DNA of 64,000 nucleotides from Sphingobium herbicidovorans (GTDB lineage: Bacteria > Pseudomonadota > Alphaproteobacteria > Sphingomonadales > Sphingomonadaceae): positions 1 to 64,000 of the forward strand of contig NZ_CP020538.1 of assembly GCF_002080435.1 (NCBI RefSeq). The letters run 5' to 3'. The stretch's first letter is position 1. Every line of letters starts with the position of its first letter. Position numbers and translations under genes: made by a program. The notes under the pieces are model-generated. The model worked only from the letters and a program-made list of their open reading frames with translations. It did not search any database and was not told where the DNA came from. Positions 17,001-19,139 of this stretch are shown in pieces.

Positions 17001-17939
17001 ATGATGAGGGCATTTCTTTTTCCGGGGCAGGGCAGTCAGTCGGTGGGCATGGGCAAGGCGCTGGCCGAAGCAAGCCCGGCTGCGAGGGAGTTGTTTCAGG
17101 AGGTCGATGACGCCCTGTCGCAGCATTTGTTCCGCATCATGGTGGAAGGCCCGGAAAGCGACCTGACCCTCACCGCAAATGCGCAACCGGCGATCATGGC
17201 CAACGCCCTTGCCACGCTGCGCGTGATGCAGCGGGAGGGCGGCTTTGCGCTGGCGGACAAGGGTGACTTCGTCGCAGGGCACAGCCTGGGCGAATATAGC
17301 GCGCTCTGCGCCGCCGAAGCATTCGACATCGGCACGACGTCGCGTCTTTTGAAGCTGCGCGGGCAGGCGATGCAGGCCGCCGTGCCGGTGGGCGAGGGCG
17401 CGATGGCTGCCTTGCTGGGCGCGGACATCGAAAAGGCGCAGGCGCTGGCCGATGCTGCCGCCGAAGGCGAAGTCTGCACCGTCGCCAATGATAATGATCC
17501 GACGCAGGTCGTCATCTCCGGTCATCGCGGTGCGATCGAGCGAGCCGTGGCGTTGGTGAAGGATCATGGGATCAAGCGCGGCGTCCTGCTCCCCGTGTCC
17601 GCGCCGTTCCATTGCCCGCTGATGCAGCCCGCCGCCGATGCGATGGAACAAGCGCTGGGCAAGGCGACGATCAACGCGCCGCTGCTCCCCGTCTACGCCA
17701 ATGTCCTGGCCGCGCCCATCGCCGATCCCGAAGAGATAAAGGCGCGCCTGGTCGAACAGGTAACCGGCCGCGTCCGCTGGCGCGAATCCGTCGCCGCCAT
17801 GTGGGAAGCAGGCGTCACCGACTTTGTCGAACTGGGCGGCAAGGTGCTCGGCCCCATGGTCAAGCGCATCGCCCCCGACGCGACCGTGCGCAGCGTCGTG
17901 ACTATGGACGATATCGAGGCGGCGCTGGCTTCCTTCTGA
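17001..17939 (+). CDS. fabD: Malonyl-CoA:ACP transacylase
   Basis: FabD moves malonyl from CoA to acyl carrier protein to start each elongation cycle. The 312-residue protein begins FLFPGQGSQ and has the nucleophile Ser95 in GHSLGEY; the catalytic His is in SAPFHCPLM near residue 203, and the Gln in the N-terminal GQGSQ forms the oxyanion hole. Two consecutive ATG codons occur at 17001 and 17004. It heads fabD-fabG-acpP-fabF, but a repeat-bounded cassette begins one base after its stop codon. Confidence 0.97.
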   Translation: MMRAFLFPGQGSQSVGMGKALAEASPAARELFQEVDDALSQHLFRIMVEGPESDLTLTANAQPAIMANALATLRVMQREGGFALADKGDFVAGHSLGEYSALCAAEAFDIGTTSRLLKLRGQAMQAAVPVGEGAMAALLGADIEKAQALADAAAEGEVCTVANDNDPTQVVISGHRGAIERAVALVKDHGIKRGVLLPVSAPFHCPLMQPAADAMEQALGKATINAPLLPVYANVLAAPIADPEEIKARLVEQVTGRVRWRESVAAMWEAGVTDFVELGGKVLGPMVKRIAPDATVRSVVTMDDIEAALASF

Positions 17940-17969
17940 TTCACGCGGAGACGCGGGGGCGCGGAGGGG
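17940..17969 (+). repeat. Left inverted-repeat arm of the GxxExxY cassette
   Basis: The arm reads TTCA followed by CGCGGAGA, CGCGGGGG and CGCGGAGG, then GG. It contains GGAGGGG, which serves as the ribosome-binding site for the TTG start at 17972. Confidence 0.8.
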
Positions 17970-17971
17970 TT

Positions 17972-18397
17972 TTGGTCGATATCGATCGCATTAGTGGAGA
18001 TGTCCTTGACGTTGCGCTGCGGATGCATCGCGAACTGGGGCCTGGCCTGCTCGAAAGCGTTTATGAAATGATCCTGGCGGCCAAATTGACCGCCTTGGGC
18101 CATGCAGTCGAGCGGCAGCGGCCGGTCGATATCGAATATGAGGGATTGAGATTTGATGCAGCCTTCCGGATAGACTTGCTCGTCGCTGGACGCCTGCTGG
18201 TGGAGATTAAATCAACCGAGCGGCTCAGCCCCGCTCATGGCAAGCAACTGCTCACATATTTGCGACTGACCGGGCAGCCCGTCGGGCTGCTGATCAATTT
18301 TGGCGGCGCTACGCTGAAGGAGGGAGTAAAGCGCATAGTCAACGACTATCGACCCTCCGCGGCTCCGCGCCTCCGCGTGAACCAAAAAGGAAACTGA
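17972..18397 (+). CDS. GxxExxY family protein (PD-(D/E)XK-like)
   Basis: A 141-residue protein of the GxxExxY family. The name motif is at Gly25-x2-Glu28-x2-Tyr31 (GLLESVY). A nuclease-like triad follows: Asp68 in FRIDLL, then Glu78 and Lys80 in VEIKS, the spacing of PD-(D/E)XK folds. The family's function is not established. The TTG at 17972 is preceded by GGAGGGG supplied by the left repeat arm. The right repeat arm encodes residues near the C-terminus (SAAPRLRV), and the last five residues come from the fabG leader; the stop is one base before the fabG ATG. It is thus embedded in the fab operon. Confidence 0.85.
   Translation: MVDIDRISGDVLDVALRMHRELGPGLLESVYEMILAAKLTALGHAVERQRPVDIEYEGLRFDAAFRIDLLVAGRLLVEIKSTERLSPAHGKQLLTYLRLTGQPVGLLINFGGATLKEGVKRIVNDYRPSAAPRLRVNQKGN
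18353..18381 (-). repeat. Right inverted-repeat arm of the GxxExxY cassette
   Basis: Read on the minus strand, this arm is TTCA followed by CGCGGAGG, CGCGGAGC and CGCGGAGG, then G. It differs from the left arm at three positions and is translated as part of the GxxExxY C-terminus. Confidence 0.8.
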
Positions 18398-18398
18398 C

Positions 18399-19139
18399 AT
18401 GTTCGATCTGACAGGCATGACCGCGCTGGTGACCGGCGCTTCGGGCGGTATCGGTTCCGCCATTGCCAGGGCGCTCGCAGCGCAGGGGGCGACGCTCGCG
18501 CTTTCGGGCAGCAATGAGGATAAGCTGACAGCCTTCGCGGCGGAACTGGGCGGCGATCACAAGACGCTGGTGTGCAATCTGTCCGATCCCGCTTCCGTCG
18601 ATGCGCTGGTCCCGCAGGCGGTCGAGGCGCTGGGCGGCAAGATCGACATCCTCGTCAACAATGCCGGCATCACCCGCGACAATCTGGTCATGCGGATGAA
18701 GGACGATGAATGGTCCGACGTCATCTCCGTCAATCTGGAAGCAGCGTTCCGCCTTGCCCGCGCCGCCGCCAAGCCGATGATGAAAGCGCGCTTCGGCCGC
18801 ATCATTTCGATCACCTCGATCGTCGGCGTCACCGGCAATCCGGGACAGAGCAACTACGCCGCGTCAAAGGCGGGTATTATCGGCATGTCCAAGTCGCTGG
18901 GCCAGGAACTGGCGAGCCGCGGCATCACCGTCAATTGCGTCGCGCCCGGCTTCATCCGCTCCGCCATGACCGATGCGCTTAACGACGCGCAGAAGGGCGC
19001 AATCCTGCAAAAAATCCCCGCCGGGGATCTTGGCAATGGTGAGGATATCGGCGCTGCCGTCGTCTATCTCGCCAGTCGGGAAGCGGGCTATGTCACCGGC
19101 CAGACGCTGCACGTGAACGGCGGCATGGCGATGATCTGA
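18399..19139 (+). CDS. fabG: 3-oxoacyl-ACP reductase
   Basis: FabG reduces 3-oxoacyl-ACP with NADPH in fatty-acid elongation. The 246-residue SDR has the cofactor motif TGASGGIGSAIA near residues 12-23, the NNAG motif, a Ser-Tyr-Lys triad (SITSIVG, then QSNYAASK) and the C-terminal VTGQTLHVNGGMAM that defines FabG. AAAGGA lies upstream of the ATG. In most relatives it follows fabD directly; here it is 459 bases downstream because of the intervening cassette. Confidence 0.97.
   Translation: MFDLTGMTALVTGASGGIGSAIARALAAQGATLALSGSNEDKLTAFAAELGGDHKTLVCNLSDPASVDALVPQAVEALGGKIDILVNNAGITRDNLVMRMKDDEWSDVISVNLEAAFRLARAAAKPMMKARFGRIISITSIVGVTGNPGQSNYAASKAGIIGMSKSLGQELASRGITVNCVAPGFIRSAMTDALNDAQKGAILQKIPAGDLGNGEDIGAAVVYLASREAGYVTGQTLHVNGGMAMI

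Follow-up and report, generated by a model that had tools for sequence, protein, structure and literature searches.

Inverted octamer arrays that frame GxxExxY genes and recur without them hint at an overlooked system of miniature mobile elements with one resident nuclease

The window, as we call the whole 64-kb stretch of DNA analysed here, carries a small gene between two neighbours that we take, from the earlier note and their sequences, to be fabD and fabG. This gene is enclosed by two inverted arrays of a short repeat, hereafter called arms, and the locus raises the question of whether the arms are the ends of a mobile element and, if they are, what part the enclosed GxxExxY protein plays in it.

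The framed gene and its product

The features of the locus are collected in table 1. The left arm is TTCACGCGGAGACGCGGGGGCGCGGAGGG and the right arm, read inverted, is TTCACGCGGAGGCGCGGAGCCGCGGAGGG; they agree at 26 of 29 positions and each contains TTCA followed by three octamers, just as the earlier note on this DNA had described, with the proviso that one of the six octamers (CGCGGGGG, in the left arm) deviates from the CGCGGAGN that occupies the other five positions. A repeat finder lengthens the arms to 17934-17968 and 18353-18387 (35 nt, 86%). Octamer doublets with at most one mismatch are confined in the 64-kb window to the two arms (4 matches vs. 0.26 expected), and none of 100 shuffles contained four or more of them, while the inverted repeat of this locus (L033) scores 22.5, against 15 for the best of 20 dinucleotide-shuffled flanks. 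One could argue that such repeats arise spontaneously in GC-rich DNA, since short inverted repeats are frequent locally (18 pairs are listed in 1 kb). This explanation is contradicted by the shuffles, the control ORFs and the reversed-pattern controls (0 in the genus) alike; chance and GC bias are thereby ruled out, and we assign them a negligible probability.

Table 1. Features of the fabD-fabG locus, in positions of the window
Feature	Positions	Strand	Remarks
fabD, upstream neighbour, intact	17001..17939	+	Conserved beside the GxxExxY gene in other genera
Whole unit with extended inverted repeat	17934..18387	.	Repeat finder; other genomes have the site empty, as a relic or as a scar
Left arm	17940..17968	+	TTCA + three octamers + GG; from arm alignment, repeat finder and shuffles
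GxxExxY gene (TIGR04256 / PF13366 PDDEXK_3)	17972..18397	+	141 codons + stop; TTG as the presumed start
Right arm	18353..18381	-	Inverted copy of the left arm, 26/29 identical; translated within the C-terminus
fabG, downstream neighbour, intact	18399..19139	+	Conserved beside the GxxExxY gene in other genera

The left arm begins immediately after the TGA stop of fabD (17937-17939) and ends with GGAGG (17963-17967), four bases 5' of TTG 17972. Judging from the sequence, this GGAGG is the likely ribosome-binding site of the GxxExxY gene, a role already given to the arm before, and the TTG its likely start. The right arm was correctly said to code for part of the C-terminus, with which it is in frame, the stop of the gene lying at 18395-18397. 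No transposase gene is present in the fabD-fabG unit.

The earlier assignment of the gene to the GxxExxY family of PD-(D/E)XK-like proteins is borne out by profile searches, in which the product scores 123.1 bits with TIGR04256 (curated cut-off 35) and 122.2 bits with PF13366 (curated cut-off 22) and matches, at E 0.001, PD-(D/E)XK families only. It is a clear member of the family defined by these two models, to which no function is attached and in the definition of which, as shown, repeat arms have no part. The residues of catalytic type are E28, D68, E78, K80, Q92 and Y96, of which D68, E78 and K80 are each conserved in 90% or more of the 29 relatives compared. The predicted structure (pLDDT 92) matches PD-(D/E)XK structures and, in model and alignment, places the active-site D and ExK on the right fold. 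On this modelling the protein is a putative small PD-(D/E)XK nuclease, perhaps closest in looks to RecB/Cas4-type enzymes. It is under purifying selection, with a median dN/dS of 0.12 (83 usable of 153 pairs).

Arms around GxxExxY genes in other genomes

Eighteen of 94 genomes in the genus contain a GxxExxY gene, always in single copy. We then used a framing test that is blind to the octamers and takes a gene as framed when a long inverted repeat around it scores at least 15, a limit picked after the scores were seen. By this measure all 18 genes of the genus are framed, compared with 0/60 control ORFs. The two contrary pictures that the earlier note had envisaged, namely relatives' genes devoid of arms or all relatives carrying the gene here with unrelated flanks, were not found. 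The octamer finder detects both arms at 17 of the 18 genes, the exception being L020; both arms are present in L042 at the same place. Across the phylum sample, where 44 of 397 genomes have a GxxExxY match (43 above the cut-off), 43/56 loci are framed at the same limit (control ORFs, 1/143), and among public genomes 62/80 (control ORFs, 2/294), these 80 being the best of at least 582 confirmed candidates. The three samples together, with the same selection of public loci (best 80 of at least 582), give 123/154 framed loci vs. 3/497 control ORFs, and raising the limit to 17 leaves 18/18, 41/56 and 57/80 (again the best 80 of at least 582) vs. 0/497. By record title, the framed public loci include some from Verrucomicrobia, Chloroflexi, Planctomycetes, Acidobacteria, Bacteroidetes, Lentisphaerae, KSB1 and Geobacter. 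The majority of arms consist of tandem units of 8-10 bases, for example CGCGGAGN, CGCAGAGN, CGCAAAGG, CACGAAGN, CACAGAGN, CGCCAAGN, CGCAACGN, CGCAGATGAA and CACGAATGAA.

The idea that arms always flank the family thus holds in the genus but fails over the three samples, in which 31/154 loci score below 15 (public loci being the best 80 of at least 582), including the cyanobacterial, WOR-3 and both Neomarinimicrobiota loci. Some low scorers have weak octamers (L068, L097 and L098) or are interrupted by contig ends or N (L190 and L195); at L109, L113-L115, L180 and L201 no octamers are visible. Two of these, L114 and L115 (G481 and G418), encode GxxExxY relatives without the catalytic aspartate, which are likewise without inverted arms. 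Where a genome has more than one GxxExxY gene, the genes belong to distinct lineages (16 pairs in 10 genomes, with 33-67% identity). One such genome, G226, has two genes ~50 kb apart that are 67% identical, L108 with a very long near-perfect inverted repeat (score 40) and L109 with none (8.5).

Phage or plasmid cargo was rejected as an explanation, for tblastn searches (1e-5) with the protein retrieved none of 50,697 phage records and 8 of 72,556 plasmid records. Arm elements on plasmids appear as short partial matches in 7 records.

Arms were compared at 38 loci beside fabG in several genera, 37 of which also include fabD (L125 starts too late). Within a locus, the two arms are more similar than arms taken from different loci (likeness 24.8 vs. 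16.3; 0/10000 permutations). At 13 loci no other right arm among the 38 matches the left arm better than its own does; the left arm of the window's locus finds better-matching right arms at seven other loci. In 36 of these loci (L125 and L136 left out) arm likeness tracks the distance between proteins (0.65) but not that between fabD/fabG (0.03), with a partial value of 0.68; the partial value is 0.65 when only the 20 loci of type A are used and 0.54 for the remaining 16 (0/2000 permutations each); when the slight overlap of arm and protein is kept, the value is 0.69. This co-variation reflects partly inheritance as one cassette, and we infer contact between protein and arm as its cause. Protein distance tracks host genes only moderately (0.32), and therefore cassettes may have been exchanged at fabD-fabG.

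Dispersed arms and the history of their sites

The genome that contains the window (4.24 Mb) has exactly one PF13366 gene, and the pattern TTCACGCGGAG..CGCGGAG has 17 matches in it at 11 places, the window included (reversed-pattern control, 0 matches). At six of the ten other places a second octamer array faces the first, inverted and at short distance; L004, L005 and L006 have a single array and L010 has a worn second end. In L007 an element is nested within one that belongs to a second arm type. The single arm at L004:1499-1530 lies inside an apparent coding region, which by its sequence is probably truB, and a similar arm sits at the same place in G042 (L251). Loci chosen among the pattern matches in other genomes of the genus (L297-L302) comprise five near-perfect palindromes of 68 bp and one of 53 bp, all at different places; one 68-bp palindrome is predicted to fold as single-stranded DNA with -46.2 kcal/mol, compared with a shuffle mean of -17.3. 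The proposal of the earlier note that the arms are the ends of a small non-autonomous element can accordingly be divided. The arms do behave like element ends, considering that they frame all GxxExxY genes found in the genus and most of those sampled beyond it, recur in the genome without a gene and vary with the protein. The gene copy itself is better seen as an enzyme source, and it is the gene-less pairs at other places that qualify as candidate non-autonomous elements.

Genomes that carry the gene are enriched in dispersed arms. With the matches at the GxxExxY gene itself discounted, arms of type A or type B are present in 14/18 gene-positive vs. 19/76 gene-negative genomes of the genus (Fisher 5e-5, in tests that treat genomes without regard to kinship); in G090, whose arm places are unlisted, 3 matches exceed the two arms of its own gene. 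In the phylum sample at least three CGCAGAGNNCGCAGAG are present in 16/44 gene-positive vs. 0/353 gene-negative genomes (13/22 vs. 0/17 in family f41 alone) and at least three CACGAAGNNCACGAAG in 16/44 vs. 9/353 (12/22 vs. 3/17 in f41), counts that include the genes' own arms and for which the reversed-pattern control reaches up to 2 per genome. Strict matching between the type of the gene's arm and that of dispersed arms was also considered and rejected, for it is only weak (6/9 vs. 10/33, p 0.06; 8/13 vs. 7/29, p 0.04) in the 42 of 44 genomes with a usable locus, G094 (match below cut-off) and G249 (fragment) having none. One genome without the gene, G023, has 37 arm matches, a number inflated because copies sit inside a larger repeat (10 of the 27 loci examined). 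These ten (L263, L264, L266, L276-L278, L282, L283, L286 and L289) show one octamer element of 136-152 bp with outer flanks in common, and it is therefore borne inside the larger repeat.

Arms in genomes without the gene (19 of the 76 in the genus) could suggest that a different cellular enzyme moves the arm elements, with GxxExxY merely residing inside one of them, the more so as cutting by GxxExxY is an activity that we infer. We consider this very unlikely, in view of the framing of the same protein family by arms in several phyla, of arms that track the protein rather than the host genes, and of the concentration of dispersed arms in gene-positive genomes. A regulatory role is a further alternative, in which the arms would be operators or RNA hairpins and GxxExxY would control its own and other genes, for instance as a transcript nuclease, their spread having some other cause. 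Consistent with this are the likely ribosome-binding site in the left arm, the many unrelated genes that arms adjoin and the role as regulator sites proposed for comparable paired octamers in the part consulted of a Geobacter study (PMC2700814). Yet the number and place of arms vary between close genomes, many related genomes are without arms and the 68-bp palindromes at unrelated sites resemble insertions, so that we regard regulation as quite improbable.

All 18 GxxExxY genes of the genus lie between fabD and fabG, where further copies are found in other genera of the family. This residence gives no support to a recent insertion at a site selected as benign, the selection having been suggested in the earlier note; the site is common to genera and is therefore either one of old residence with losses or one of repeated replacement. 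The empty sites that the earlier note had proposed to look for do exist: among 30 fabD-fabG loci (best matches), 18 are filled (459-482 bp, apart from two of 1298 bp) and four are empty (18-20 bp). G033 keeps a gutted relic of 113 bp in which remnants of the arms are left, G023 a scar of 51 bp, and the remaining six loci contain other DNA (two of 60-61 bp and four with an unrelated insert of ~800 bp). The empty sites may be losses; in the comparison of filled, relic, scar and empty states between species no gain at a defined empty site was caught. The two gaps of 60-61 bp (L058 and L062, in G015 and G009) hold a different small inverted repeat, GTCATCC..GGATGAC. The unrelated insert of ~800 bp, which presumably begins like an enoyl-CoA hydratase gene, is seen in L045, L046, L061 and L064-L066, in the first two alongside the GxxExxY unit. 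G045 and G047 have ~830 bp extra between fabD and the GxxExxY gene.

A second gap, between genes that we take from their sequences to be ruvC and yebC, contains an element in the genome of the window and an octamer element also in G089, is 27-32 bp long in four of 30 loci and has unrelated palindromes in others. These palindromic repeats (L203-L232) are of several kinds that differ by species, for example the CCTCTCCC..GGGAGAGG and CGTTCG..CGAACG types, as though small repeats used this gap as a landing site. Sites s7, s12 and s14 are filled in some genomes and empty or scarred in others. One orthologous site, s14, is of type A in two genomes and of type B in another, and at a different one, s10, the number of octamers per array varies. 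Flank pairs were usable except at s5, s13 and s17, and the picture at s4 is unclear. No exact target-site duplication of 3-10 bp was found in 29 pairs, not all of them independent (0.49 expected), and IS-like movement with target duplication was rejected on this count. Just outside TTCA, 71 non-redundant ends show weak conservation, T-rich and then G.

Some of these data would suit a drive by break and repair, in which the nuclease cuts octamer arrays that are then mended from another array, so that gene conversion spreads and evens the arrays and the arms are selfish units, whole elements not being transposed. The likeness of the arms of one locus despite the old site, the presence of both types at s14, the differing octamer number at s10 and the missing target-site duplication all agree with it. 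However, gene-less arms are mostly outward-facing inverted pairs at short distance (6/10 places), which fits movement of pairs better than conversion of single arrays, and so do the 68-bp palindromes at unrelated places. We deem this reading unlikely.

A possible role for GxxExxY and its known parallels

The explanation that we favour, and to which we give about an even chance, is that, within a family of miniature elements, the unit between fabD and fabG is the member that stays resident and bears the gene, and that GxxExxY, a putative PD-(D/E)XK nuclease, serves the gene-less arm pairs in trans. The ends of the elements would be inverted arrays of an 8-10-base repeat, which the GxxExxY protein may recognise, perhaps as a single-stranded DNA hairpin predicted to form from both arms, and would cut at the outer TTCA boundary or close to it. 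Host repair could then copy or move the gene-less arm pairs, leaving no target-site duplication, in keeping with the pairs analysed, whereas the gene copy would stay in place for long times and serve dispersed elements in trans, in the manner of REPIN-RAYT systems. Arm binding could also repress GxxExxY, because the left arm holds its likely ribosome-binding site.

More broadly, and with confidence somewhat short of even, GxxExxY proteins may be the enzymes of bacteria-wide miniature mobile elements with tandem-octamer ends, one PD-(D/E)XK nuclease mobilising hairpin-forming DNA in trans while having neither a transposase nor an integrase of its own. For a common protein family of no known function, the DNA arrays that frame its gene and recur in the genome offer a concrete and testable partner, and orphan intergenic repeats in several phyla gain a candidate enzyme. 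If the broader proposal is true, the GxxExxY family obtains its function and many such orphan repeats are tied to one enzyme.

In the literature searched, the scope of which excluded subscription journals and preprints, we found no report linking arrays of this kind with GxxExxY genes. The GxxExxY papers found are, in the parts consulted, unrelated to arms, and a search with six arm sequences matched only an unrelated paper. The nearest description of the arrays concerns Geobacter metallireducens, for which tandem octanucleotides paired on opposite strands at variable distance, in classes 1 and 2, were presented in 2009 as putative binding sites of regulators (IHF/HU), as stated in the portion of the article consulted (PMC2700814). 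The class 2 consensus given there, TCTCCGTS, reads SACGGAGA on the opposite strand, a sequence similar to the CACGGAGN arms found here; that same portion mentions no GxxExxY gene (PMC2700814).

For the protein, RecB/Cas4-type PD-(D/E)XK nucleases (SSO0001, MGME1, EXO5 and lambda exonuclease) may be counted among the closest known systems. For the elements, a likeness to MITEs lies in short non-coding elements with inverted ends, although they differ from the MITEs of insertion sequences in having neither target-site duplication (0/29 pairs) nor a transposase gene in the unit. By analogy, the best reading is a REPIN/RAYT-like system in which a PD-(D/E)XK nuclease would replace the tyrosine transposase. 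As described in the part of the REPIN-RAYT study consulted (PMC3116915), a distinctive single-copy enzyme gene is flanked by repeats, and its product is held to act in trans on inverted doublets. Comparable here are the arms at all 18 genes of the genus, the dispersed inverted doublets of a short repeat (ten other arm places, six of them pairs) and the finding that several enzymes in one genome belong to different lineages, all three being features of REPIN-RAYT in the same part of that source (PMC3116915). The differences are that GxxExxY is a PD-(D/E)XK protein and not an HUH/Y1 tyrosine transposase, and that the ends are tandem 8-10-mers whereas REP sequences are single palindromes. If our explanation is true, GxxExxY would have arrived by a second, independent path at the mode of life of REPIN-RAYT systems, in which a resident enzyme sustains miniature elements.
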